A stretch of DNA of 20,096 bases from a virus, in IMG/VR virus record IMGVR_UViG_3300046777_000223, positions 1-20,096 of that record, one strand, 5' to 3'. The translations under genes and the position numbers were made by a program. The notes beneath the pieces were generated by a model that did no database searches, was not told the DNA's origin, and saw only the letters and a program-made list of their open reading frames with translations. Positions 1,398 through 16,802 of this stretch are shown here, piece after piece (the first letter of the stretch is position 1; each line of letters begins with the position of its first letter).

Positions 1398-1957
1398 GCG
1401 TCGATGTTCAAGCCGTTGCGAAAGCGTTAAATCTCACGCCGCGACGGGTTCAGCAATTAAAAGCCGAAGGGATGCCAAGCATCGGGCGAGGTCAGTACGA
1501 ACTCGGACCGTGCATGGCGTGGTATATCCGATACCTTCAGAGCAAGTTAGACAAACTCGGGCCGAATACGAACCCTGATACGCCTGACCTACTTGCAGAA
1601 AAGACGCGCCTTGCTAGGGAGCAGGGCGACAAGTTAGCCATTGAGAACTCGATAAAGCGCGGAGAACTGGTATATGTCTCCGAGGTCGTTTCTACATGGT
1701 CGAATCACATTGCTAGTTGTAGAGCCAAACTGCTTGGCTTGCCGACTAAAGTCGCGCCGCAGTTAGTCAATCAAACCAATGCAAACGCAATCGCTGGAAA
1801 GTTACGCGACGAAATCGACGCCGCCCTCTACGAACTCTCCGAAGGTACAGACGACTACCAACATCTCGGAAGTTTTGAAGATAGCGAGCAAGACTTGGAA
1901 GCCGCCGCCGAAACTGACGATTTCGGAATGGGCAGATCGTTATCGGAGACTTTCTAG
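1394..1957 (+). CDS. Terminase small subunit, Nu1-like
   Basis: A 187-residue protein that recognises phage DNA for packaging and brings it to the large subunit. Residues 4-37 form a winged-helix/MerR-like helix-turn-helix (V-A-K-A-L-N-L-T-P-R-R-V-Q-Q-L) followed by the G-R-G-Q-Y-E-L wing, as in lambda Nu1. A charged helical region with A-E-K-T-R-L-A-R-E-Q (about 68-78) follows, as in the Nu1/GpA-type small subunits, and the C-terminus is acidic. It starts at an ATGA overlap with the Mom-like gene and sits directly before the large subunit, the normal order. Its last codons overlap the large subunit by 83 bases if the TTG at 1875 is that gene's start. Length is close to lambda Nu1 (181 residues). 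Confidence 0.88.
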   Translation: MSVDVQAVAKALNLTPRRVQQLKAEGMPSIGRGQYELGPCMAWYIRYLQSKLDKLGPNTNPDTPDLLAEKTRLAREQGDKLAIENSIKRGELVYVSEVVSTWSNHIASCRAKLLGLPTKVAPQLVNQTNANAIAGKLRDEIDAALYELSEGTDDYQHLGSFEDSEQDLEAAAETDDFGMGRSLSETF

Positions 1958-3689
1958 CGAATCCTCGGCAGAGCCTGGGGTTTGGCGAACAGCGCGAGCC
2001 GAATATCAGCGCGGGATCATGGACGCTATCACCGATGAATCGGTGAAAGAAGTCTGGATTCAGAAAGCCGCGCAGATCGGGTGGACGGAAATCCTTAACA
2101 ACGTGATCGGTTATCACGTTCACCAAGACCCTGCGCCGATGCTGCTAGTACAGCCGACGCTAGAGATGGCCGAGTCGTGGAGTAAGGACAGATTCTCGCC
2201 AATGGTGCGAGATACTCCCGCTCTCGCTGAACGGATTGCAGACCCGAAGTCAAGAGACAGCGGCAATACGCTGCTGCACAAAAAGTTTACGGGCGGTCAC
2301 TTAACGGTGGCAGGTGCAAATAGTCCCTCGGGACTTGCATCAAGACCGATCCGAATCGTGCTGTTCGATGAGGTGGATCGTTACCCGGCGAGTGCAGGTA
2401 CAGAGGGCGATCCAATCTCACTCGGTCGCAAACGTACTGCGACATTTTGGAGCCGTAAGGTATTGGCCGGATCAACGCCGACGATTAAAGGATCAAGCCG
2501 TATCGAGGCAGGATTCGAGTCGGGCGATCAACGGTTCTACTTTGTACCTTGCCCACATTGCGGAGAGTTTCAACGCTTAACGTGGGCGCAGGTTAAGTGG
2601 CCGGAAGGACAGCCAGAACTAGCCGAATATATCTGCGTGCATTGTGCGGCGATCCTAACCGAAGCCGACAAGCCGCAGATCCTACAGGCAGGAGAGTGGC
2701 GAGGGACGAAACCGTTTAACGGAATCGCCTCGTTTCATATCTCGGAACTTTATTCGCCGTGGTCTACTTGGGCAGAGATGGCAATTGCTTTCGTGCAAGC
2801 GAAGCGATTTCCCGAGACGCTGCAAACGTGGATCAATACCGCCCTCGGTGAGACATACGAGGAGCGAGGAGAACAGGTCGAGACGGTTGGCCTCGCAAGT
2901 CGCCGAGAGCCTTACACAGCGCAAAGCATCCCACAGGGTGCATTGATGCTAACGGCAGGGGTAGACGTACAGGACGACCGCCTTGAAATAACGGTAGTCG
3001 CTTGGGGACGAGACGAGGAAACGTGGGTTGTCGAGCACGCGATTCTGCGTGGCGATCCCGGCAGCGATTCCTTGTGGAACGATCTAGACGGATTCTTGTC
3101 TCGCAAGCGAGAGACGGAGGACGGGCGACCGCTACTAATCGAAGCGGCTGCGGTGGACTCCGGCGGTCACTTCACACAACAGGTCTATGCCTACTGCGCC
3201 AAACGAAAGTCACGGCGCATCTGGGCAATCAAGGGAGCGGGTGGCTTCGGTCGGTTGATCTGGCCGAAGTCAGCAGGACGGGCGGGTAAAACCTCGGCGC
3301 AGGTTTTTATAGTCGGTGTAGATACTGCGAAGGACGTTCTTTTCGGACGCCTTAAGCGAGTGCACCAACCGGGAGCAGGATATATACACTTTCCTGTTTC
3401 GGTCGATGAGGTCTACTTTGACCAGTTGACCGCCGAGACGTTGATCTACCGGATGGTGCAGGGGCGGCGCGTAAGGTCGTATAAGCCTCGCTCATCCGGC
3501 AGTAGGACGGAAGCCCTCGACTGTCTTGTATACGCCTACGCTGCCTTTATAGGGCGGCATGGCCCGATGATATTGCCGAGCCGAAAGATTGAACCTGTAG
3601 AAGTTTCAGAGACCAAAGTAGTTCAACCACAGAAACCGCAACGCCGACCCGCACCGATTCGCGGCGGTTGGATGAACGGATGGAGATAA
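1875..3689 (+). CDS. Terminase large subunit, GpA family
   Basis: The packaging motor ATPase and DNA-cutting subunit, a lambda gpA-type protein. The frame is open from ATG 1779, but the first 32 residues are low-complexity and overlap the small subunit. TTG 1875, with GGAAG 6 bases upstream, gives the family-typical start before W-K-P-P-P-K-L-T. Numbering from ATG 1779: a Walker A-like K-A-A-Q-I-G-W-T-E at 96-104; Walker B L-F-D-E-V-D at 195-200; a zinc-binding pair C258-P-H-C261 and C286-V-H-C289; a nuclease domain with acidic residues D396 (G-V-D-V-Q-D-D), D460 (V-D-S-G-G) and D581 (E-A-L-D-C-L-V-Y-A-Y). All expected elements are present, so the gene looks intact. Length, 604-636 residues, is normal. 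It ends 3 bases before the homing endonuclease start. Confidence 0.95.
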   Translation: MKIASKTWKPPPKLTISEWADRYRRLSSESSAEPGVWRTARAEYQRGIMDAITDESVKEVWIQKAAQIGWTEILNNVIGYHVHQDPAPMLLVQPTLEMAESWSKDRFSPMVRDTPALAERIADPKSRDSGNTLLHKKFTGGHLTVAGANSPSGLASRPIRIVLFDEVDRYPASAGTEGDPISLGRKRTATFWSRKVLAGSTPTIKGSSRIEAGFESGDQRFYFVPCPHCGEFQRLTWAQVKWPEGQPELAEYICVHCAAILTEADKPQILQAGEWRGTKPFNGIASFHISELYSPWSTWAEMAIAFVQAKRFPETLQTWINTALGETYEERGEQVETVGLASRREPYTAQSIPQGALMLTAGVDVQDDRLEITVVAWGRDEETWVVEHAILRGDPGSDSLWNDLDGFLSRKRETEDGRPLLIEAAAVDSGGHFTQQVYAYCAKRKSRRIWAIKGAGGFGRLIWPKSAGRAGKTSAQVFIVGVDTAKDVLFGRLKRVHQPGAGYIHFPVSVDEVYFDQLTAETLIYRMVQGRRVRSYKPRSSGSRTEALDCLVYAYAAFIGRHGPMILPSRKIEPVEVSETKVVQPQKPQRRPAPIRGGWMNGWR

Positions 3690-4100: not shown

Positions 4101-6128
4101 ATGTCAGACAAAAAAATTAGCGCACTTACCTCGCTTGCTCAAGGAGACGTAGCCGTTTCAACGGACGTTCTCCCGATTGTTGACACGAGCGCAACCGAGA
4201 CAAAGAAAGTCACTGCTGCCGCCCTCGTTGGCGCGGGACTGACTGCGGGTGTCACGAACGTTGATATCAACTCGGGTTCGATTGACGGAACGACCATCGG
4301 CGCGAACTCTGCTGCTGCCGGTACGTTTACGAACCTGACCGCCTCTGGCACGGTTTCTTTCAGCGGCGCGACTGTCTCTAACGGCGGCTCCGTAACGACT
4401 GTAGATATTAACGGCGGCACCATCGACGGAGCCTCGATCGGCGCATCGAGCGCATCGACGGGTTCGTTTACTACGCTGACCACTTCCTCGACCGTTACGC
4501 TCAACGGCGGCACCGCCAACGGCGTGCTGTATCTGAACGGCAGCAAGGTGGCGACGAGTGGTAGTGCGCTGACGTTTGATGGGACGAATTTCGGAACCAC
4601 AGGAAACGCAAATCTTGGCAGCGTAAGCAAGTCAACCGATACGCAATTAAATTTTGCGTCAGACCTTGGAACCCAACGAATTTATCTTGATCGCGGGACG
4701 CGTAGTCTTGTTTTTTACGACGCCACAACTGCGATTGAAAACTACCGCATTGCTGGTATCACAGGTATTCAGACTTGGGGTGTTGGCGGCTCCGAACAAA
4801 TGCGCCTCACCTCCACGGGGTTGGGCATCGGGACTAGTTCGTTTACTTGGCTGGCGTCCGGTTCTGAAACAGGCGTTAACATTAAATCTAGCGGAACCAA
4901 CGCGGCGGGTATCAGTGTTAGCAGTTCCAATGCGAACAATACGCGCATGGAAATGTTTGCCAGTTACACGCTAAATCAAGGCGGATTTTACTTAAAAGGT
5001 GATAGTGCATATCCGCCGATGATATTTGGGCAGGTCAATGGATCAACTTACCGCGATTCCATGCTGCTTGATGCCTCCGGCAACCTCGGTCTGGGCGTCA
5101 CGCCGAGTGCGTGGGAAACGGCAAACTCGGTGCGGGCGTTGCAGTTGAATGGCGGCAATGTCAGTTCGTTCAGCAACGCATATATCTGGGTCGGGCAAAA
5201 CTGGTACAGAGATTCTGCAAGCGCGGAACGGTATGTCAACACCGCCGCCGCTACAAAGTATCAGCAAGCGTTTGGCGCACATTCGTGGTACACAGCAGCC
5301 TCCGGCACAGCAGGCAACGCCATCTCGTTCACGCAGGCGATGACGCTTGATGCGTCGGGTCAACTTGCTCTAGGCACATCTACTGCCTCATCTACGCTCG
5401 GTCGCAATCTAACCATCAACGGCGCGAACGCTGGCACTAACTCCGGCATCGTTCTGCAAAGCGCTACAACGGAACGCGGGTACGTTTACGCTTCCGATAC
5501 GCAAATGGTCTTGGGATCGTCTACTAGTATTCCGGTGTTGATGGTTACAGGCGGCTCCGAACGCGCCAGAATCACGACGGGTGGGGAATTTTTGGTTGGT
5601 ACGACAAATACATCTGCTTCCGCAGGCAATGGCGTAAAAATTGTTTCTCAAAATGGCGGTCAAGCGGCAGGTGGCGTATTTGCAGTCGGAAACTACGGCG
5701 GTTCGGATATTTATCCGTTCATGGCTTACTCATCGTCTGCAAGCGCGTTTAGATTCTATGTTGATTACGCAGGGAATATATACGCAACAAATACGTCAAT
5801 CATTAGCCTGTCAGACCAGCGCCTAAAAGAAAACATCCGTGATTTGGATGTTGGCCTAGATGCTGTGATGGCGCTGAAGCCGCGCAAGTTTGATTGGAAG
5901 GCTGGCAAGGGCAAGGACAAGAAAGACGACCGTGGGTTTATCGCCCAAGAGTTTGAGCAGGTATTCCCAGACCTTATCAATGAATGGAAAGACCCTGCCC
6001 CAGAGGGCGAGCAGCCTTACAAAACTGTTCGTCAAGACCTTATCCCTGTGCTTGTGAAGGCCATGCAGGAGCAGCAAGCAATGATTAACGAACTGAAGGC
6101 GGAAGTAGCCGCACTTAAAGGAGCCTGA
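4101..6128 (+). CDS. Tail fibre/tailspike-type protein with S74 chaperone domain
   Basis: A 675-residue fibre-like protein ending in an intramolecular chaperone (peptidase S74) domain. The N-terminal 110 residues hold a short anchor-like segment (S-A-L-T-S-L-A-Q-G-D) and two copies of a 47-residue beta repeat (see the repeat entry). The middle is rich in Gly, Ser, Thr and Asn, as expected for a trimeric beta-structured shaft, with repeated L-D-A-S-G-(N/Q)-L strands. At 571-578 lies S-D-Q-R-L-K-E-N: S571 and K576 match the catalytic Ser/Lys pair that cuts the chaperone off after trimer folding, releasing about 105 residues. The last 30 residues form a coiled coil (M-Q-E-Q-Q-A-M-I-N-E-L). It probably binds host surface sugars or proteins. 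Its place between terminase and portal is unusual for a fibre. Confidence 0.88.
   Translation: MSDKKISALTSLAQGDVAVSTDVLPIVDTSATETKKVTAAALVGAGLTAGVTNVDINSGSIDGTTIGANSAAAGTFTNLTASGTVSFSGATVSNGGSVTTVDINGGTIDGASIGASSASTGSFTTLTTSSTVTLNGGTANGVLYLNGSKVATSGSALTFDGTNFGTTGNANLGSVSKSTDTQLNFASDLGTQRIYLDRGTRSLVFYDATTAIENYRIAGITGIQTWGVGGSEQMRLTSTGLGIGTSSFTWLASGSETGVNIKSSGTNAAGISVSSSNANNTRMEMFASYTLNQGGFYLKGDSAYPPMIFGQVNGSTYRDSMLLDASGNLGLGVTPSAWETANSVRALQLNGGNVSSFSNAYIWVGQNWYRDSASAERYVNTAAATKYQQAFGAHSWYTAASGTAGNAISFTQAMTLDASGQLALGTSTASSTLGRNLTINGANAGTNSGIVLQSATTERGYVYASDTQMVLGSSTSIPVLMVTGGSERARITTGGEFLVGTTNTSASAGNGVKIVSQNGGQAAGGVFAVGNYGGSDIYPFMAYSSSASAFRFYVDYAGNIYATNTSIISLSDQRLKENIRDLDVGLDAVMALKPRKFDWKAGKGKDKKDDRGFIAQEFEQVFPDLINEWKDPAPEGEQPYKTVRQDLIPVLVKAMQEQQAMINELKAEVAALKGA
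4260..4541 (+). repeat. Two-copy 47-residue beta repeat inside the S74 fibre gene
   Basis: The segment from 4260 is repeated from 4401, a spacing of 141 bases or 47 residues. Both copies read V-D-I-N-x-G-(S/T)-I-D-G-x-x-I-G-A-x-S-A, then G-(T/S)-F-T-x-L-T. The protein repeat is clear while codons differ, so this is an old duplication held by selection on the protein. Such G-T-I-D-G type repeats are common in the shaft of phage fibres. Confidence 0.75.
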
Positions 6129-7171: not shown

Positions 7172-7759
7172 ATGGCTAACCTTTTCGATTCTGCTAACTA
7201 TCCGAAGCGCGAGCCAACCTCGTTGCAAGCGGGTGATTTGTGGGCATGGACGCGCACTGATCTCATTACAGACTACCCCTCCGACGCTTACAGCCTTTCG
7301 TATATCGCTCGACGGGAAATCACCGGAGAGAAGATCGCTATCTCTGCGACGGGCACATCGACGGGTTACACGGTCTCTGTGGCGTCTAACACCACAGCCG
7401 ACTATGAAGCCGGACGCTATCACTGGGTGGCCTACATTACGAGAACGTCCGACTCGGCTCGAGTCGAGGTCGATCAAGGCGTTTTCGAGGTAGAACCGAA
7501 CCGAGCCACATCATCGGCAGACCCGAGATCGTTCGCCCAGATCGCCCTTGATAACATCGAGGCGTACCTTAAAGACCCAACCAATATCGCCGCTGCCTCT
7601 TACTCCATCGCAGGTCGTTCGCTTTCCCGTTGGAATCGTAATGACTTGTTTGCGGAGCGTGAGCGGTTAAAGGGCGAAGTCGTACGCGAGCGCAGAGCAG
7701 AGGCTATCGCGAAGGGTCTCGGCACTAATGCGACCATTCGAGTGAGGTTTACGGCATGA
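7172..7759 (+). CDS. gpW-like head-tail joining protein with N-terminal beta domain
   Basis: A 195-residue protein placed directly before the portal, the position of gene W in lambda. The C-terminal part (about 115-195) has the gpW-like plan: an A-L-D-N-I-E-A-Y-L helix, S-Y-S-I-A-G-R-S-L-S-R-W, then a charged helix E-R-E-R-L-K-G-E-V. gpW is a small connector protein that stabilises the filled head and forms the platform for tail attachment. Residues 15-108 are an added beta-sandwich-like domain (L-Q-A-G-D-L-W-A-W, Y-E-A-G-R-Y-H-W-V-A-Y) seen on some environmental phage relatives. The ribosome site is AGGGG at 7161-7165. The stop overlaps the portal as ATGA. The gpW assignment comes from motif and position; the function of the beta domain is unknown. 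Confidence 0.72.
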   Translation: MANLFDSANYPKREPTSLQAGDLWAWTRTDLITDYPSDAYSLSYIARREITGEKIAISATGTSTGYTVSVASNTTADYEAGRYHWVAYITRTSDSARVEVDQGVFEVEPNRATSSADPRSFAQIALDNIEAYLKDPTNIAAASYSIAGRSLSRWNRNDLFAERERLKGEVVRERRAEAIAKGLGTNATIRVRFTA

Positions 7760-9204
7760 GTCTATTTGACATCTTCAAACGACAGCAGCCGAAACCCTCT
7801 CGCAAGCGATCATTCGAGGCAGCGAATACGGGTCGGCTTTTCTCCGATTGGCTGACGCAAACAAAGTCTGCTGACAGCGATATTCGCTATGCGCTTAAAG
7901 CGATGCGAGCGCGTTCGCGTGACCTTTGCCAAAACAACGATTACACCCGTCGTTATCTCAACTTGGTTTCGACGAACGTAATTGGCCCGAAAGGAATCAC
8001 GCTGCAAGTTCGTGCGCGTGAGACGAACGGAGCACTAGATCAGGTCGCTAACCAACAGTTAGAGGCTGCATTTGCAGCATGGGGTCAGCCTGGCGTTTGT
8101 ACGGTAGACGGCAAACTCTCATGGGTTGACGCTCAACGGGTATTTATCGAAAGCGTGGCGCGTGACGGCGAGGCTTTTGTCCTCTTTGTCGAGGACAACG
8201 CAAACCCGTTTCGGTTCCGGCTCCAGTTCATCGACCCTGACTTTATCGACCAAGACAAGAACGAGATGCTCGCCAACGGCAACCAAATCCGCATGGGCAT
8301 CGAGGTTGATTCGACGGGTCGCGCTATTGCCTACCATGTGCGAGTAAAAGACCCGAACGATTATCAGGTCGGCGCGTCGGATATGAAAACGGTTCGCATC
8401 CCTGCCGACCGTATGATTCACGCCTTCCGAGTGGATCGCATCGGGCAGACTCGCGGAACGCCTTGGACGGCTACGGCTATGACCCGCCTAAAGATGCTCG
8501 GCGGGTACGAAGAAGCCGAACTAGTCGCCGCTCGCGTTTCTGCCTCCAAGATGGGTTTCTTCGTCTCCGAATCTGGCGACGAGTATCAGGGCGACGGTAA
8601 CAACGTCGATGGCTCGTTGAGCATGGACGTTCAGCCGGGACAATTTGCCCAACTCCCTGCCGGGGTGGATTTCAAGGCATACGATCCACAGCACCCCTCT
8701 ACGGCTTTTAGGGACTTCGAGAAGGCGATGCTGCGTGGTATAGCCTCTGGCCTTGGCGTGTCTTATACGTCATTAGCGAACGATTTAGAGGCTGTCTCGT
8801 ATTCGTCCATCCGTCAGGGCTTGCTTGAAGAACGCGACCATTGGCGTTTGGTTCAGGGATGGGTTGTCGAGCATTTCTGTCAGCCCGTCTATCTGCGATG
8901 GCTGCGTCAAACGCTTGACGCCGGGGTGGTCAATCTTCCGGCAAACAAATACTTTAAGTTTTCCGCTACCCAATGGGTTCCCCGAGGATGGCAATGGGTC
9001 GATCCTCGTAACGAAGCCGAAGCGCAGATTGTTGCGATCAACAACGGCTTGATGACTCGCACGCAAGCCCTCGCTGAACGAGGACTCGACATCGAAGATG
9101 TGATGCGCGAGCGACAAGCCGAAGAAGAAATCATCGCGCAGTTTGGCGTAACCCTGCCGGGTGGCACTTCCCCAATCGCACCGGAGGTCGAGAATGGCGG
9201 CTAA
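7756..9204 (+). CDS. Portal protein, lambda gpB family
   Basis: A 482-residue portal protein. Twelve copies form the ring at one head vertex through which DNA enters and leaves, docking TerL during packaging and the connector afterwards. Family landmarks are the R-A-R-S-R-D-L-x-x-N-(N/D)-x-x-x-R segment around 50-65, N-V-I-G-P-K-G-I-T-L-Q near 75, R-D-G-E-A-F-V-L near 135, Q-F-I-D-P-D near 155, the R-V-D-R-I-G-Q-T-R-G-T-P-W segment near 225, and Y-S-S-I-R-Q-G-L-L-E near 350. Length is close to lambda gpB (533), slightly shorter at the C-terminus. It starts at an ATGA overlap with the gpW-like gene. The last 11 bases overlap the next gene. It looks intact. Confidence 0.94.
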   Translation: MSLFDIFKRQQPKPSRKRSFEAANTGRLFSDWLTQTKSADSDIRYALKAMRARSRDLCQNNDYTRRYLNLVSTNVIGPKGITLQVRARETNGALDQVANQQLEAAFAAWGQPGVCTVDGKLSWVDAQRVFIESVARDGEAFVLFVEDNANPFRFRLQFIDPDFIDQDKNEMLANGNQIRMGIEVDSTGRAIAYHVRVKDPNDYQVGASDMKTVRIPADRMIHAFRVDRIGQTRGTPWTATAMTRLKMLGGYEEAELVAARVSASKMGFFVSESGDEYQGDGNNVDGSLSMDVQPGQFAQLPAGVDFKAYDPQHPSTAFRDFEKAMLRGIASGLGVSYTSLANDLEAVSYSSIRQGLLEERDHWRLVQGWVVEHFCQPVYLRWLRQTLDAGVVNLPANKYFKFSATQWVPRGWQWVDPRNEAEAQIVAINNGLMTRTQALAERGLDIEDVMRERQAEEEIIAQFGVTLPGGTSPIAPEVENGG

Positions 9205-9541
9205 ATACGACATCGTTTGCGATCAGGGCGCGACCTTTAGCCGAGAATTAAAGTGGCTCGACGATAGCGCAAATCCGGTAAACCTGACTGGCTACACGGC
9301 TCGGATGCAGGTGCGAGACGAGGCTGATTCTTCAACGGCTGCTCTCTCGCTCACGACCGAGAATAGCCGCATCACCCTTGGCGGTACTGCGGGAACGATC
9401 ACGCTGCTCGTCTCGGCTACCGACACGGCTGCGGTCGTCGCAGGTGAGTACGTCTATGACCTAGAGATCGTCTCGAGTACAGGTACGGTAACGCGCCTGA
9501 TTCAAGGCTGCTTCACGGTTGATGCGGAGGTCACGCGATGA
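9194..9541 (+). CDS. Small beta-sandwich phage protein, possible baseplate/fibre adaptor
   Basis: A 115-residue protein. The start is ATG 9194, because GGAGG at 9183-9187 lies 6 bases before it; the frame extends further upstream only inside the portal gene. It has a strongly alternating beta pattern: D-I-V-C-D-Q-G-A-T-F, L-T-G-Y-T-A-R-M-Q-V-R, then I-T-L-L-V-S-A-T-D-T-A-A and a final G-E-Y-V-Y-D-L-E-I-V. This plan resembles the N-terminal domain of BppU-like baseplate proteins and other Ig-like phage modules, where it serves as an attachment domain. It is translated just ahead of the repeat-rich fibre-like gene (ATGA overlap), so it may connect that protein to the virion. Exact function is unknown. 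Confidence 0.68.
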   Translation: MAAKYDIVCDQGATFSRELKWLDDSANPVNLTGYTARMQVRDEADSSTAALSLTTENSRITLGGTAGTITLLVSATDTAAVVAGEYVYDLEIVSSTGTVTRLIQGCFTVDAEVTR

Positions 9542-11580
9542 GCGAGCGCGTAGTGATCGACGAGACGCTGCAATCGGTTGTCGTTGAAGAAACTAACACC
9601 GAAGTTGTTGTTCGTACCGGATGGCCTGACGGCGCAAAGAAAGGTGCAAATAACGACATTACCTCGCTCTCCGGTTTAACTGGCGGCATCTCGACCCCGA
9701 CGTACATTGATTTAGCCGCTGCGGGTGCTACCGATGCAGTTCGTCGCCTAGCGTGGAATCCTGATACCGGAACCGCGCAGATCGGCATGATCGGCAACGT
9801 GCAAGCCGACATCGGTCAGCAGATGTACGCTTATGTGCATAACGCCGAATCTTTTCAGATTAATAAAGGACAGGTCGTTTACCTTTATCAAGCAACAGGC
9901 AACAAAGCGTCCGTTAAATTAGCGTTTAACACCTCTGATGATACCTCTGCCAAAACCCTTGGCCTTGCAGCAGAAAACATCGCGCAAGGTGCAAATGGTC
10001 TGGTTATTTGTCAGGGCGTTTTGAGCGGCATTAACACAGGTTCGTATAACGAAGGCGATACCCTCTATGTTGGCGCAACTGCCGGAACGCTAACGGCAAC
10101 AAAACCCAAAGCACCGAATCACATGGTTTATGTTGGTGTCGTTGAGCGAGCCAACAACGGTAATGGTCAGATTTATGTCCGAATACAAAACGGATACGAA
10201 CTAGACGAAATCCACGATGTGCAAATCAATTCACCTGCAAACGGTCAGTTGATTATCTATGACGCATCGACTGGACTTTGGAAAAACGCCAACCTTACCG
10301 CCGGAACCGGAATCTCGATTTCTAATGGCGCAGGTTCAATCACTATCTCTGCTCCCGAGAACGGAACAGTCACTAGCGTTGCGACGGGAACTGGCCTGAC
10401 GGGTGGCCCGATTACCTCGACGGGAACGATTAGCCTTGCGAATACCGCCGTCAGCGCAGGGTCGTATGGCTCTGCTTCACAGGTTCCGACGTATACCGTA
10501 GATGCACAAGGTCGCCTGACGGCGGCAAGCAATACGGCAATTAGCATCGCCAATACCGCAGTCTCGGGACTCGGTACGATGTCTACCCAGAACGCAAATT
10601 CGGTGAGCATTACCGGAGGCTCTGTCTCTGGTATCACCGACCTTGCTGTGGCTGACGGCGGCACAGGCGCGAGCGATGCAGCAGGAGCGCGTACCAATCT
10701 CGGCGCGGTTGGTACTGGCCTCACTATCTCGGCAGGTACAGGCTTAACGGGCGGCGGCGATCTGTCAGCAAATCGCACGATCTCGCTTGCTAATACGGCT
10801 GTAACGGCAGCCTCTTATGGTTCTGCCTCGCAGGTTCCGACTTTCACGGTAGACGCGCAGGGACGTTTAACCGCTGCGAGCAATACCAATATCGCTATTG
10901 CCAATACTGCCGTGAGCGGTCTTGGCACAATGTCTACCCAGAACGCGAACAACGTCTCGATCTCGGGCGGCAGCATCACAGGCATCACCGATCTCGCCGT
11001 TGCCGATGGCGGTACGGGAGCGAGCAGCGCGTCAGGCGCTAGAACCAACCTGCTCCCGTCGTACACAAGCAACGCAGGAAAGGTTCTGGCCGTCAATGTT
11101 GGCGGCACGGACGTTGAGTGGATCGCCGCAGGTGGCGTCGGCACGGTTACTAGCATCACAGCCGGAACGGGTCTGACGGGCGGGACGATCACTTCGACTG
11201 GAACGATTGACCTTGCTAATACGGCTGTCTCGGCGGGTTCGTATGGCTCGGCAAGCGCTGTGGCAACCTTTACGGTAGACGCACAGGGTCGTCTAACTGC
11301 CGCCTCGAATACGAATATCGCAATCGCTAACACGGCTGTTTCTGGCTTGGGCACGATGTCCACCCAGAACGCCAACTCGGTTGCGATTACTGGCGGCAGT
11401 ATCGGCGCGGTCAGTTACCAACCCGCCACGACAGCCACGCCGACTAACAATGGCGATATGGTTTTTGAGTTGACCGACAACAGCACGTTAACGATCAAGG
11501 TCAAAGGCAGCGATGGCACGGTTCGGGTAGTTGCATTGACCTTGACAACGAGCGCAGAATCCTTCTTGAGGCTTGAATAA
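9538..11580 (+). CDS. Repeat-rich fibre-like structural protein
   Basis: A 680-residue protein with the look of a trimeric phage fibre or head/tail decoration. Residues 1-30 are a short acidic/beta anchor; 60-225 form a domain with Q-M-Y-A-Y-V-H-N and E-G-D-T-L-Y-V-G-A segments; 278-630 hold three long repeats (see the repeat entry); the end has a short domain (P-A-T-T-A-T-P-T-N-N-G-D and F-E-L-T-D-N-S-T-L-T-I-K-V-K-G). The composition is very rich in Gly, Ser, Thr, Ala and Asn, with almost no Cys. The V-D-A-Q-G-R-L-T-A-A repeat is common in phage fibres. It starts as ATGA and ends as TAATG against the protease-capsid gene, so it is embedded in the head module, where lambda has no fibre. The target is unknown. 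Confidence 0.75.
   Translation: MSERVVIDETLQSVVVEETNTEVVVRTGWPDGAKKGANNDITSLSGLTGGISTPTYIDLAAAGATDAVRRLAWNPDTGTAQIGMIGNVQADIGQQMYAYVHNAESFQINKGQVVYLYQATGNKASVKLAFNTSDDTSAKTLGLAAENIAQGANGLVICQGVLSGINTGSYNEGDTLYVGATAGTLTATKPKAPNHMVYVGVVERANNGNGQIYVRIQNGYELDEIHDVQINSPANGQLIIYDASTGLWKNANLTAGTGISISNGAGSITISAPENGTVTSVATGTGLTGGPITSTGTISLANTAVSAGSYGSASQVPTYTVDAQGRLTAASNTAISIANTAVSGLGTMSTQNANSVSITGGSVSGITDLAVADGGTGASDAAGARTNLGAVGTGLTISAGTGLTGGGDLSANRTISLANTAVTAASYGSASQVPTFTVDAQGRLTAASNTNIAIANTAVSGLGTMSTQNANNVSISGGSITGITDLAVADGGTGASSASGARTNLLPSYTSNAGKVLAVNVGGTDVEWIAAGGVGTVTSITAGTGLTGGTITSTGTIDLANTAVSAGSYGSASAVATFTVDAQGRLTAASNTNIAIANTAVSGLGTMSTQNANSVAITGGSIGAVSYQPATTATPTNNGDMVFELTDNSTLTIKVKGSDGTVRVVALTLTTSAESFLRLE
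10369..11436 (+). repeat. Three imperfect long repeats in the fibre-like gene
   Basis: A unit containing G-L-T-G-G, S-L-A-N-T-A-V, Y-G-S-A-S-x-V-P-T, V-D-A-Q-G-R-L-T-A-A-S-N-T and G-L-G-T-M-S-T-Q-N-A-N occurs three times. The L-A-N-T-A-V landmark starts at 10435, 10786 and 11212, so spacing is 351 and then 426 bases; the second unit has an additional linker. Protein identity between copies is very high while third codon positions differ widely, so the copies are not recent duplicates. They probably form repeated beta-helical or triple-stranded shaft segments. Confidence 0.85.
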
Positions 11581-13973
11581 TGGCAGTCGATCTACAGCCG
11601 ACGGAAGCGATGGCAGAGGAAGCCGAGCGCGGACTCGCTTGGCGTGAGGAGTTCGGGCGCGGCGGCACAGCCGTTGGCGTTGCTCGGGCTCGCGACATCA
11701 AGAATCGGGTGAATCTTTCGCCCGAAACAGTCCGAAGGATGGTTAGTTACTTTGCAAGACACGAAGTTGACAAACAAGCCCAAGGTTTCTCGCCCGGCGA
11801 AGAAGGCTATCCGAGTGCGGGACGCATCGCGTGGGCGCTCTGGGGTGGTGATCCCGGCCAAAGTTGGGCTAATCGAAAGAGCGAAGAATTGGATCGCGAA
11901 AGTGAGGGACGAACTATGGACAAGGTAGAAGAACGACATATCGTTGCCGTCGTTGAGGACGAGGCCACCGTCACGGTGACTTTTGCCAAGTCCGAGTTCG
12001 ACATGGACGAATCGGAAGAAGCCGATGAGGTCATCGAGGAATTCGAAGAACTCGCGGAAGAAAACGACGACGAAGGCGAGGAAGTTTTTGCAGAAGGCGA
12101 ACGCCCTCTAGACCCGAGCGGCAAAGAGCCGTGGGAAGAAGGCTACAGCCTTGCTCGCAAAGGGCCGACCGAGCGCGTATTCCGTTCGGCTATCTTCGAG
12201 CGTCAGACGATTATGGAAGATCAGCGTCGTGCGACGTTGGCCTTCTCTAGCGAAATGGAAGTTGACCGTGGATGGGGTATCGAGGTTCTCGATCACTCGC
12301 CCGGATCAATCGACATGGAATTTATCGGCAGCGGTCGTGCGCCGTTGTTGGTAGATCACGAAATGGCCGATCAGGTCGGAGTAGTGGAACAAATCAGCCT
12401 CGGATCGGATCGCGTAGCACGCGCCGTCGTTCGCTTTGGGAAAAGTGCGCGAGCCGAGGAGATTTGGCAAGATGTAAAGGATGGCATACGCTCAAACGTA
12501 TCTGTCGGTTACATCATTAACGAGATGGTTTCAGGCGGTAAGAAGGGAGACCGGGAGGTTTTCCGTGCTACTCGTTGGATGCCCCTCGAAATTAGCATTG
12601 TATCAATCCCGGCAGATACGAGCGTCGGCGTAGGTAGGGCAATGACCCCCGCTCCGGCTCCCGTTGCCGATCCCATCATTATTGTTAAGGAGACACCAAA
12701 AATGTCAGACGATGTAAGTGTGAAGGCGGAGCGCGAGCGCGTCTCTGCGATTCTTGAATTGGCCTCGCGTCACAATCAGCGCGAGTTCGGCGAGTCGGCT
12801 ATCCGTGACGGTGCGAGCATTGAGCAGTTCCGTGGCGCGTTGCTCGATAAGGTTTCTTCCAAGCCGCTGAACGTCGATCACGAGATCGGCCTGACGGACA
12901 AGGAAATCCGCTCGTTCTCGTTCGTGAAGGCGATGCGTGCTCTTGCGAACCCGCAGGATCGTCGCGCACAGGATGAGGCTGCTTTCGAGTTCGCCGCTTC
13001 CGAAGCCGCCGCGAAGAAAGAGGGTCGCACCTCGCGTGGCTTGATGGTTCCGGTCGATGTGCTCTACAAGCGCGACATCACGACCTCGACCGCCTCGGGT
13101 ACTGCCAAGGGTGGCAACCTCGTTGCGACCGATCTGTTGGCTTCGTCGTTCATCGACGTTCTGCGTAACAAGATGGTGTTGAACACGCTCGGCGCGCAGT
13201 TCCTCACTGGCTTGCAGGGCAACGTGGCGATCCCGCGTAAGACCGCTGCTTCGTCGGCCTACTGGGTTGCCGAGAACGTGGCTCCGACGGAATCGACCAA
13301 CGCTCCGGCCTTCGATCAGGTCACGATGACCCCGAAGACCCTTGGCGCGTATGTCGATATCAGCCGTCGCTTGATGCTCCAGTCCTCGCTCGACATCGAG
13401 AACCTCGTCCGCAATGACTTGGCTGCCTCGATTGCCGTTGCTATGGACGGTGCTGCTATCGCTGGCTCGGGCTCCAACAAGCCGACTGGCGTGCTGAACA
13501 CCTCGGGCATTGGCTCGGTGACGCTCGGCACGAACGGCGGTGCGCCGACTTGGGCGATGGTGACGAACCTCGTTCGCGAAGTGGACATCGACAACGCCCT
13601 GAACGGCGCTGCTGCGTTCCTCACGAACGGTCAGGTCAAGGCGAAGTTGTCCAACACCTCGAAGCAGACTTCGGGCGTGGAAGGCAACTTCATCCTCGGC
13701 CCCGATGTCAATATGCTCTACGGCTACCCGTTGGTCGTGTCGCAGCAGGTTCCGGCTAACCTCTCGAAGGGTACGGGCAGCAACCTGTCGGCGATGATCT
13801 TCGGCGTGTGGAGCGAGTTGCTGATCGGTCAATGGTCGGGCATCGACCTGATGGCTGATCCGTACACGGGCTCGAACGCTGGCACGGTTCGCATCGTGGC
13901 CTTCCACGACTGCGACTTTGCGGTTCGTCACCCCGAGTCGTTCGCCGAGTGTAACGAGATCATCACGGCCTAA
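11580..13973 (+). CDS. Prohead protease - major capsid protein fusion
   Basis: A 797-residue frame joining three parts. Residues 1-105 are an N-terminal module (G-L-A-W-R-E-E-F-G-R-G-G, Y-P-S-A-G-R-I-A-W-A-L-W-G-G-D) seen in some phage head proteins, role unknown. A very acidic linker spans about 140-176. Residues 200-350 are an HK97-type (S78) prohead protease, with a likely catalytic H260 (L-V-D-H-E-M), S308 (V-S-V-G-Y) and E337 (P-L-E-I-S-I-V-S-I). Residues 375-797 are the HK97-fold capsid protein, starting with a scaffold-like delta region. In the assembled shell the protease trims the delta regions before expansion. In most phages these are separate genes. Internal starts at 11916 and 12702 have good ribosome sites, so shorter products are likely. 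It starts at a TAATG junction. Confidence 0.9.
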   Translation: MAVDLQPTEAMAEEAERGLAWREEFGRGGTAVGVARARDIKNRVNLSPETVRRMVSYFARHEVDKQAQGFSPGEEGYPSAGRIAWALWGGDPGQSWANRKSEELDRESEGRTMDKVEERHIVAVVEDEATVTVTFAKSEFDMDESEEADEVIEEFEELAEENDDEGEEVFAEGERPLDPSGKEPWEEGYSLARKGPTERVFRSAIFERQTIMEDQRRATLAFSSEMEVDRGWGIEVLDHSPGSIDMEFIGSGRAPLLVDHEMADQVGVVEQISLGSDRVARAVVRFGKSARAEEIWQDVKDGIRSNVSVGYIINEMVSGGKKGDREVFRATRWMPLEISIVSIPADTSVGVGRAMTPAPAPVADPIIIVKETPKMSDDVSVKAERERVSAILELASRHNQREFGESAIRDGASIEQFRGALLDKVSSKPLNVDHEIGLTDKEIRSFSFVKAMRALANPQDRRAQDEAAFEFAASEAAAKKEGRTSRGLMVPVDVLYKRDITTSTASGTAKGGNLVATDLLASSFIDVLRNKMVLNTLGAQFLTGLQGNVAIPRKTAASSAYWVAENVAPTESTNAPAFDQVTMTPKTLGAYVDISRRLMLQSSLDIENLVRNDLAASIAVAMDGAAIAGSGSNKPTGVLNTSGIGSVTLGTNGGAPTWAMVTNLVREVDIDNALNGAAAFLTNGQVKAKLSNTSKQTSGVEGNFILGPDVNMLYGYPLVVSQQVPANLSKGTGSNLSAMIFGVWSELLIGQWSGIDLMADPYTGSNAGTVRIVAFHDCDFAVRHPESFAECNEIITA
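12686..12704 (+). promoter_or_regulatory. Internal ribosome binding site for the capsid protein
   Basis: TAAGGAGA at 12686-12693, then an A-rich spacer, then an in-frame ATG. It lies exactly at the border between protease and capsid domains, where a separate gene start would be in other phages. It is one of the two best ribosome sites in the window, together with that of the tail tube gene (AAGGAGG at 16396-16402). Confidence 0.75.
12702..13973 (+). CDS. Major capsid protein from an internal start
   Basis: An in-frame ATG at codon 375 of the fusion gives a 423-residue HK97-type major capsid protein. The ribosome site TAAGGAGA (12686-12693) lies 8 bases before it, stronger than the site of the full frame. 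The first 60 residues are a charged helical delta region (V-K-A-E-R-E-R-V-S-A-I-L) that acts as built-in scaffold and is normally removed by the protease. After it come the N-arm, the S-S-A-Y-W-V-A-E-N segment, the P-K-T-L-G-A-Y-V-D-I-S-R-R-L segment of the spine and P-domain, and the A-I-A-G-S-G-S-N-K-P-T-G-V-L loop, all family hallmarks. Codon choice here is more uniform than in neighbours, as expected for the most abundant virion protein. Independent synthesis of this product would give the large excess of capsid over protease that a shell needs. Confidence 0.8.
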   Translation: MSDDVSVKAERERVSAILELASRHNQREFGESAIRDGASIEQFRGALLDKVSSKPLNVDHEIGLTDKEIRSFSFVKAMRALANPQDRRAQDEAAFEFAASEAAAKKEGRTSRGLMVPVDVLYKRDITTSTASGTAKGGNLVATDLLASSFIDVLRNKMVLNTLGAQFLTGLQGNVAIPRKTAASSAYWVAENVAPTESTNAPAFDQVTMTPKTLGAYVDISRRLMLQSSLDIENLVRNDLAASIAVAMDGAAIAGSGSNKPTGVLNTSGIGSVTLGTNGGAPTWAMVTNLVREVDIDNALNGAAAFLTNGQVKAKLSNTSKQTSGVEGNFILGPDVNMLYGYPLVVSQQVPANLSKGTGSNLSAMIFGVWSELLIGQWSGIDLMADPYTGSNAGTVRIVAFHDCDFAVRHPESFAECNEIITA

Positions 13974-14678: not shown

Positions 14679-15198
14679 GAAGTACCGCTCCGTCTATTCT
14701 CGTTATTCCCATTACGGGATGAGCGATGATAGGCGCGACCCCGTATTAAACGCATTGAGAGGGCTTTCTGGGTCATTTCTCGATGTGTCGTGCGGCAGGG
14801 GTGAGTTGATGCAAGCCGCCGCCAATATGGGCTTCAAGCCCGTCACAGGCACGGAGGCTGTGCCGGAACTCTGCGGCTTTGGCGTAGAGCAAGCCGTCAT
14901 CACAGATTTACCTTTTGAAAACAAGTCTTTCGATGTGGTTACCTGCATCGACGTTATCGAGCACGTTCTGGAGCCGGACATCGTGCCGGGACTCTTGGAA
15001 CTAGAGCGCGTCTGTAAAGGGACGCTGATTATCGCGGCTGCTGACTACCCGACCTATTGGGACGGGGTAAACCTACACCCGTCTGCTAGACCGTATTCGG
15101 CATGGCACGAACTTTTTTGCAGAACATTCAGCGGCAAGGTTAAGCGTCTCGGCGCGACCTCAACTAGCGAAATGTGGGGGGTGACTTATGGCGTTTGA
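14653..15198 (+). CDS. Class I SAM-dependent methyltransferase
   Basis: A 181-residue methyltransferase. GTG 14653 is taken as the start, since the upstream part of the frame overlaps the small gene in a way that looks non-coding. No strong ribosome site is visible, so translation may be coupled. Motif I is clear at 44-51 (D-V-S-C-G-R-G-E), which binds S-adenosylmethionine. A T-D-L-P-F segment (84-88) and F-D-V-V-T-C-I-D-V-I-E-H (93-104) follow, as in the Methyltransf_11/UbiG-like group. No N-P-P-Y-type motif of DNA adenine methylases is present, so DNA is not the likely substrate. It is preceded by the MptE-like gene, and a shared role in modifying a sugar or virion protein is possible but unproven. 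It overlaps the FII-like gene by 11 bases. Confidence 0.85.
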   Translation: MDDRAKEIEKYRSVYSRYSHYGMSDDRRDPVLNALRGLSGSFLDVSCGRGELMQAAANMGFKPVTGTEAVPELCGFGVEQAVITDLPFENKSFDVVTCIDVIEHVLEPDIVPGLLELERVCKGTLIIAAADYPTYWDGVNLHPSARPYSAWHELFCRTFSGKVKRLGATSTSEMWGVTYGV

Positions 15199-16409: not shown

Positions 16410-16802
16410 ATGGCAAATCATCACGGTTCAGAGGGCGTCGTCCGGGTTGGCGCGAATACCGTCGCGGAAGTGACGAGTTTCTCGTTCACCGAAACGGCAG
16501 AATACGCCGAGGACACCACCCTTGCAGATACCACCAAGACGTACAACGTCACGGCGATTAAGTCGTGGAACGGTAGCGTCACCTGCTTTTGGGACGAGAC
16601 CGACACGACCGGACAGGTTGCGTTGGCTCCGGGCGCGAACGTTGCTCTGGTTCTCGCTCCCGAGGGCGTAGACTCTGGCGATACCCGCTACAGCGGAAAC
16701 GCTTTGATCACCGAGATCACGCGCAACGTACAGCGCGGAGCGATCACGGAAGTCACCTTTAACTTCATCGGCAACGGTACGCTGACTGCCGCCACTTCTT
16801 GA
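16410..16802 (+). CDS. Major tail tube protein
   Basis: A 130-residue tail tube protein, the main subunit of the non-contractile tail. It has a beta-barrel pattern: G-V-V-R-V-G-A-N-T-V-A-E-V at the start, then S-W-N-G-S-V-T-C-F-W-D, a Y-S-G-N-A-L-I-T-E-I strand and V-T-F-N-F-I-G-N-G at the end. The last is typical of short tail tube proteins, in which the F-x-F/W-x-G-x-G strand closes the barrel. It has the strongest ribosome site of the tail block, AAGGAGG at 16396-16402 with a 7-base spacer, as expected for an abundant protein. It lacks the C-terminal Ig-like domain of lambda gpV. The genes for chaperone and tape measure follow as expected. Confidence 0.85.
   Translation: MANHHGSEGVVRVGANTVAEVTSFSFTETAEYAEDTTLADTTKTYNVTAIKSWNGSVTCFWDETDTTGQVALAPGANVALVLAPEGVDSGDTRYSGNALITEITRNVQRGAITEVTFNFIGNGTLTAATS

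Follow-up and report, generated by a model that had tools for sequence, protein, structure and literature searches.

The major capsid protein gene of this phage very probably makes both a protease-capsid fusion and free capsid subunits, and comparison of related genes suggests that the same is true in all of the 100-odd lineages examined. The gene lies within the window, by which is meant the whole 20,096-nucleotide stretch analysed (positions 1 to 20,096 of IMG/VR virus record IMGVR_UViG_3300046777_000223). We consider it highly likely that its products are nested, C-coterminal head proteins, and that co-assembling fusions bring a limited amount of protease into the prohead, with cleavage to follow. 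What the DNA itself shows is the domain order, the start signals with their conservation, and the selection that acts on them at the nucleotide level. Synthesis of both products, their co-assembly, dosage and processing are what we infer.

Domains and setting of the fused gene

The claim of an earlier, sequence-only reading that protease and capsid protein are fused in one 797-codon frame is borne out. Positions 11580-13973 form a single open reading frame from ATG to TAA without an internal stop, encoding 797 amino acids (86.3 kDa), and PHROG 617 ('major head protein') spans both parts in one stretch (residues 205-792; profile positions 15-622 of 626; E 3.7e-151). Pfam profiles locate Peptidase_S78 (PF04586) at residues 253-347, with 22.6 bits against a cut-off of 21, and Phage_capsid (PF05065) at residues 511-789 (E 1.9e-46); no ClpP was found in this Pfam search. 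The NCBIfam protease/MCP fusion model NF045541 matches mostly the protease part (residues 213-478), and membership of this family is ruled out by a score of 152.7 bits, far under its curated cut-off of 525. The features of the gene are collected in Table 1.

Table 1. Features of the fused gene and its start signals, in window coordinates.
Feature	Position	Strand	Basis
TAATG, overlap of the stop of the fibre-like upstream gene with the first ATG of the fused gene	11578..11582	+	sequence
Fused gene: N-terminal domain, RHI module, S78-type prohead protease, delta domain, HK97 major capsid protein	11580..13973	+	ORF, profiles and model
N-terminal helical domain, residues 1-110, phrog_2859-like	11580..11909	+	profile match and model
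Putative upstream internal start: SD AAGTGAGG (11900-11907) and ATG 11916-11918 (M113)	11900..11918	+	SD -6.9, conservation
Prohead protease domain, S78 family, residues 200-341	12177..12602	+	profile, alignments and model
Disordered Ala/Pro-rich linker, residues 344-378, containing the internal start	12609..12713	+	AlphaFold2 pLDDT < 50
Internal Shine-Dalgarno site TAAGGAGA, 8 nt before the ATG	12686..12693	+	anti-SD pairing -9.0 kcal/mol
Internal ATG (M375), putative start of the capsid product	12702..12704	+	conservation and SD
Helical delta-type (scaffold-like) domain, residues 378-497	12711..13070	+	AlphaFold2 model
Mature capsid domain, HK97 fold, residues 511-797	13110..13970	+	profile and structure search

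An AlphaFold2 model of the fused protein, built on 60 relatives (mean pLDDT 75), places a helical N-terminal domain at residues 1-110, a small, poorly predicted module at about 120-164 and the protease at 200-341, followed by a disordered linker (344-378), a helical delta-type region (378-497) and then the capsid domain. The N-terminal domain is folded separately and is missing from many relatives. Within the protease, H260 and S308 are invariant in two family alignments (17 and 60 sequences) and are the putative catalytic residues. The delta-type domain is expected to be removed at maturation, a role assigned by analogy with HK97. For the capsid part, the solved shell of roseophage R4C is nearest in both sequence and fold: residues 511-797 share 35% identity with its shell protein, and 8gta (the R4C capsid) is the best Foldseek match (E 6.7e-19), with HK97 proheads also matched.

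The neighbourhood consists of ordinary head and tail genes, including terminase (1779-3689), portal (7756-9204) and head-closure genes (at 15188 and 15553), with tail genes downstream. Fibre-like genes are also present, and two of them (4101-6128 and 9538-11580), one of which carries an S74 endosialidase chaperone, sit among the genes for terminase, portal and capsid, where fibres are not usually found. A Mom-like DNA modification gene (639-1397) adjoins a ParB-like gene (41-652) and lies shortly before the terminase small subunit. In the open reading frame at 9161-9541, the ATG at 9194 has a very strong SD (-10.2) and is probably the true start instead of the GTG at 9161. The first ATG of the fused gene is preceded by GAGG (SD energy -5.6), and its overlap with the upstream stop recurs in many close relatives.

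A candidate capsid start at the domain border

A strong SD and ATG had been reported exactly at the domain border (12686-12704), and this description holds for both the strength of the site and its location. Pairing with the anti-SD reaches -9.0 kcal/mol, and the site falls inside the linker of the AlphaFold2 model, between the end of the protease at residue 341 and the helix that begins at residue 378. By anti-SD energy, the ATG at 12702 ranks fifth among the 286 sense-strand ATGs of the window, level with the true gene starts at 16410, 9194, 9538 and 15188, and only 2 of 218 ATGs in an antisense control of the window reach -9. A chance origin is ruled out by this rank together with the family-wide conservation described below. 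The mRNA around 12702 is also less structured than elsewhere (z +2.7 in this window). Initiation at M375 would give a product of 423 amino acids (44.8 kDa). Another ATG inside the fused frame, at 12472, has a strong SD (-8.9), yet it is out of frame and is immediately followed by TAA, and it was rejected as a start.

Conservation of the candidate internal start

The 80 closest IMG/VR loci keep an SD and ATG at the border despite indels and replaced linkers (IVKET-KM, ITQES-TM, ISEVQKM and HSPKVQIM among the latter). The border reads AAGGAG-ACA-CCA-AAA-ATG in the window, and ACAGGAG-TCT-ACT-ATG, TCTGAGGTACAAAAAATG or CCGAAGGTACAAATTATG elsewhere among these relatives. An ATG is likewise found at the aligned border in isolates with 36-50% identity, namely CRP-811, CRP-406, VP882, R4C, RcCronus, Persinger, ep3, PPpW-3 and phiHAP-1. 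Border sequences from isolates include those of CRP-811 (TAAGGAGA), CRP-406 (GGAGGATG), CRP-821 (AAAGGAGT), R4C (TCGGAGGA), VP882 (AGAGGTGC), PPpW-3 (GAGGGTAT) and RcCronus (AGAGGAAA).

Two family-wide scans yielded 242 fused open reading frames with a recognisable protease end, which represent 108 lineages at less than 70% identity. An in-frame start codon is present in the linker in 108 of 108 lineages; it is an ATG within 60 codons after the protease in 107, the exception (L243) having GTG behind AAGGAG. When an ATG was counted as SD-bearing at an SD energy of -4.2 or below, such sites occurred in frame in 94 of the 108 linkers, compared with 17 in frame +1 and 2 in frame +2. Control windows of equal size from the same genes carry an ATG with SD in 20.7% of 936 cases (Fisher p = 4e-43, a value that ignores residual relatedness). 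Twelve additional fused genes missed by the anchor pattern all carry a border ATG with SD (12/12). These findings strongly support the proposal that two products share one gene, since the comparative evidence consists of a start in every one of the 108 linkers, nearly always with an SD.

The signal is weak or incomplete in some phages. The border SD is weak in Murka and MQ-4, and cyanophages S-CBS1, S-CBS3 and S-LBS1 (L083, L090 and L091) keep the border ATG with no SD there. General SD-less initiation is only partly tenable as an explanation for the cyanophage border, given that most other annotated starts of S-CBS1 do have SDs.

Selection on the border and alternative explanations

Methionine is constant at the border, and the residues ahead of it vary (KE, EE, RG, QRS, EGI, PKG and SED). 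The SD core is found in all three codon phases, with counts of 72, 17 and 10. Where a KE or EE pair precedes the border ATG, G is the third base of its first codon in 52 of 59 cases, versus 195 of 551 elsewhere in the genes (p = 2e-15). The border mRNA is less structured than elsewhere (median z +2.2, positive in 96% of lineages), its GC content is lower (0.43 versus 0.57), and the second residue is of a type common at starts (S, T, E or P) in 76 of 107. Varying flanks, three SD phases, G-ending codons and open mRNA are hallmarks of selection for initiation, and they strongly support a constraint on the internal start that acts at the nucleotide level and not at the protein level.

None of the other accounts that we considered predicts all of these border features together, and a fusion relic, a protein motif and a pause site each fail for this reason. 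If only the 797-amino-acid protein were made, proteolysis would have to yield all subunits, and the SD and ATG would be relics of an ancestral fusion. Such genes have been described in the field as one propeptide, as for Murka, in which a single 684-amino-acid propeptide of protease, scaffold and capsid is described with no internal start proposed (PMC10892653), and for the protease-capsid fusion of MD8, which has a ClpP-type protease (PMC8508860). Under either reading, the mature shell protein is a C-terminal fragment left by processing, as in R4C. A relic would decay, however, and the start is instead kept in all 108 lineages. It has been re-created in other linkers and other codon phases, with G-ending codons and open mRNA. 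Full-length subunits would also crowd the prohead: we estimate that about 415 of them (T=7) would add about 20,800 nm3 inside a prohead of about 33,500 nm3, if an inner radius of 20 nm is assumed. We therefore regard a single polyprotein as improbable.

Conservation of the linker as protein, for example as a KE-containing self-cleavage site whose likeness to an SD and ATG is a by-product, would be consistent with the common occurrence of Lys or Glu at -4 and Glu at -3. Other lineages have RG, QRS, EGI, PKG or SED instead, with Met alone constant, and the G skew of synonymous third bases is confined to the border. Variable flanking residues and skewed synonymous sites thus rule out conservation of a protein motif, to which we assign only a very slight chance. 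The internal SD might otherwise act as a translational pause that aids co-translational folding, with no initiation at all. Its location at a domain border in the AlphaFold2 model is what such a pause would call for, and it has been suggested, although this is contested, that ribosomes slow at SD-like sequences within coding regions. A pause needs no ATG, fixed SD-ATG spacing, start-type second residue or reduced structure, all of which are seen; moreover, one lineage swaps in GTG and the cyanophages retain the ATG without an SD. Pausing alone is ruled out by the conserved ATG (or GTG), the spacing and the start context, and its probability is in our judgement minimal.

A probable second nested start and possible stacked modules

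The ATG at 11916 lies in a disordered linker that joins the N-terminal domain to the RHI/protease part. Where the RHI module is internal to the open reading frame, an ATG stands just before the module in 99 of 102 cases and an SD in 98 of 102, most of these being close relatives; counted by lineage, the RHI-border ATG is present in 12 of 15. In CRP-823 (L089, near 3700), one extra T in a T-run, as compared with CRP-821, separates the N-terminal domain from the frame that encodes protease and capsid and leaves intact both the RHI-border start (L089:3956) and the capsid-border start (L089:4595). The extra T is either a natural frameshift or a sequencing error. If it is not an error, CRP-823 would be a natural experiment indicating that the first start is dispensable for the downstream products. 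A further N-terminal module, beginning PYPNEHAAR, is found in L088:3613, L132 and L157 with a Met and SD before it (-7.4, -8.3 and -6.1), which gives the impression of a stack of accessory modules with a start for each.

A wider proposal is that initiation doses three nested C-coterminal products, from 11580, 11916 and 12702, and that the same design arose independently in ClpP-type (Gifsy-2/Fels-1) genes; we judge the arguments for and against it to be about evenly balanced. Were it correct, the accessory domain, protease and capsid subunit would be dosed by initiation levels, not by separate genes.

A proposed route from nested starts to the mature shell

We propose that ribosomes starting at 11580, and probably also at 11916, would produce protease-delta-capsid fusions, and that those starting at the SD-ATG at 12702 would produce a free 45 kDa delta-capsid protein equivalent to HK97 gp5. 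The fusions would join the prohead through their own capsid domain, which would place the protease on the inner, N-terminal side at a limited dose. After assembly, the protease would trim the delta domain from all subunits, together with itself, to leave a mature shell protein of about 30 kDa.

In R4C, the one solved relative, the shell chain (8GTA) comprises the last 268 residues of an open reading frame of 629 residues, whose border ATG is residue 189. Maturation thus strips everything to well past the internal start. Because the mature shell begins downstream of every start, the N-termini of virion capsid proteins cannot separate the hypotheses.

The sequence-only reading had also envisaged few fusions and many free subunits. 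This ratio is plausible, but it is not uniformly encoded: the internal SD exceeds the first SD in strength in only 10 of 19 genes (the window and isolates), and SD strength therefore does not account for the proposed dosage. Coupling, or else the occupancy of the site by elongating ribosomes, must then play a part.

If the two-product reading is correct, the annotated 'major capsid protein' of 600-800 amino acids is not the main shell precursor, and this role would fall to an unannotated product with a mid-gene start. The protease dose per prohead would then be limited simply, by tethering to a minority of shell subunits through nested initiation. The nested start would correct gene-start annotation across the fused family and change the reading of a widespread group of phage head genes. 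For capsid nanocages, cloning of the whole frame or of the nested frame alone would be predicted to give different particles.

Comparison with known systems

The sequence-only reading treated the joining of two normally separate genes as unusual. The fusion stands, but its rarity does not, because the family is known and widespread: PHROG 617, VP882, phiHAP-1, ep3 and Murka already provide examples. A tblastn search against isolates returned 146 phage records, all below 60% identity to the fused gene, which include VP882, phiHAP-1, ep3, FoX/Murka, S-CBS1, RcCronus, R4C and the CRP roseophages. Like the window gene, members of the PHROG 617 family have an S78-type protease, a delta-type region and an HK97 capsid in one frame between portal and head-tail genes. 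Most of the isolate records examined list the gene as one 'major capsid protein', some adding 'and protease', and none annotates the internal start; database annotations of the fused family miss it. No description of an internal capsid start in such genes was found in the open-licence literature.

A separate route to a fused gene is represented by Gifsy-2, Fels-1 and MD8, where the protease is of the ClpP type and unrelated to S78, indicating an independent fusion. Effantin and colleagues reportedly described in 2010 a 'tripartite capsid gene' of Gifsy-2 that unites a protease, a scaffold-like part and the capsid protein. In the Fels-1-type genes examined (L260:20750-22870 and L261-L340), all 11 sequences below 85% identity retain a well-spaced GAGGA ahead of Met220, which follows the protease. 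The E-E/D-F..MP peptide at this border is conserved too, and selection at the nucleotide level is therefore not separable there. Met220 is likely to be a Nu3-like internal start, and its context is suggestive of convergence of the ClpP-type fused genes on a nested start.

The likeness to lambda C/Nu3 that had been drawn for the window applies to the conserved in-frame start at a domain border. It does not extend to the protease, which is ClpP-type in lambda, or to the capsid gene, which is separate there. Lambda C/Nu3, said to have been described by Shaw and Murialdo in 1980, has an in-frame internal start that gives a C-terminal product nested in the protease gene, and phage Mu I/Z has the same arrangement. 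The logic in both resembles that proposed here, with the protease carried into the prohead. In those phages it is the scaffold that is nested, and the capsid protein has its own gene, whereas the nested product here would be the capsid subunit together with its delta domain. HK97 encodes protease and capsid in two separate genes (PMC8508860), gp4 and gp5, and the phage of the window has one frame. Use of the internal start would nonetheless recreate gp5 (delta and capsid), with the upstream part corresponding to the protease gp4.
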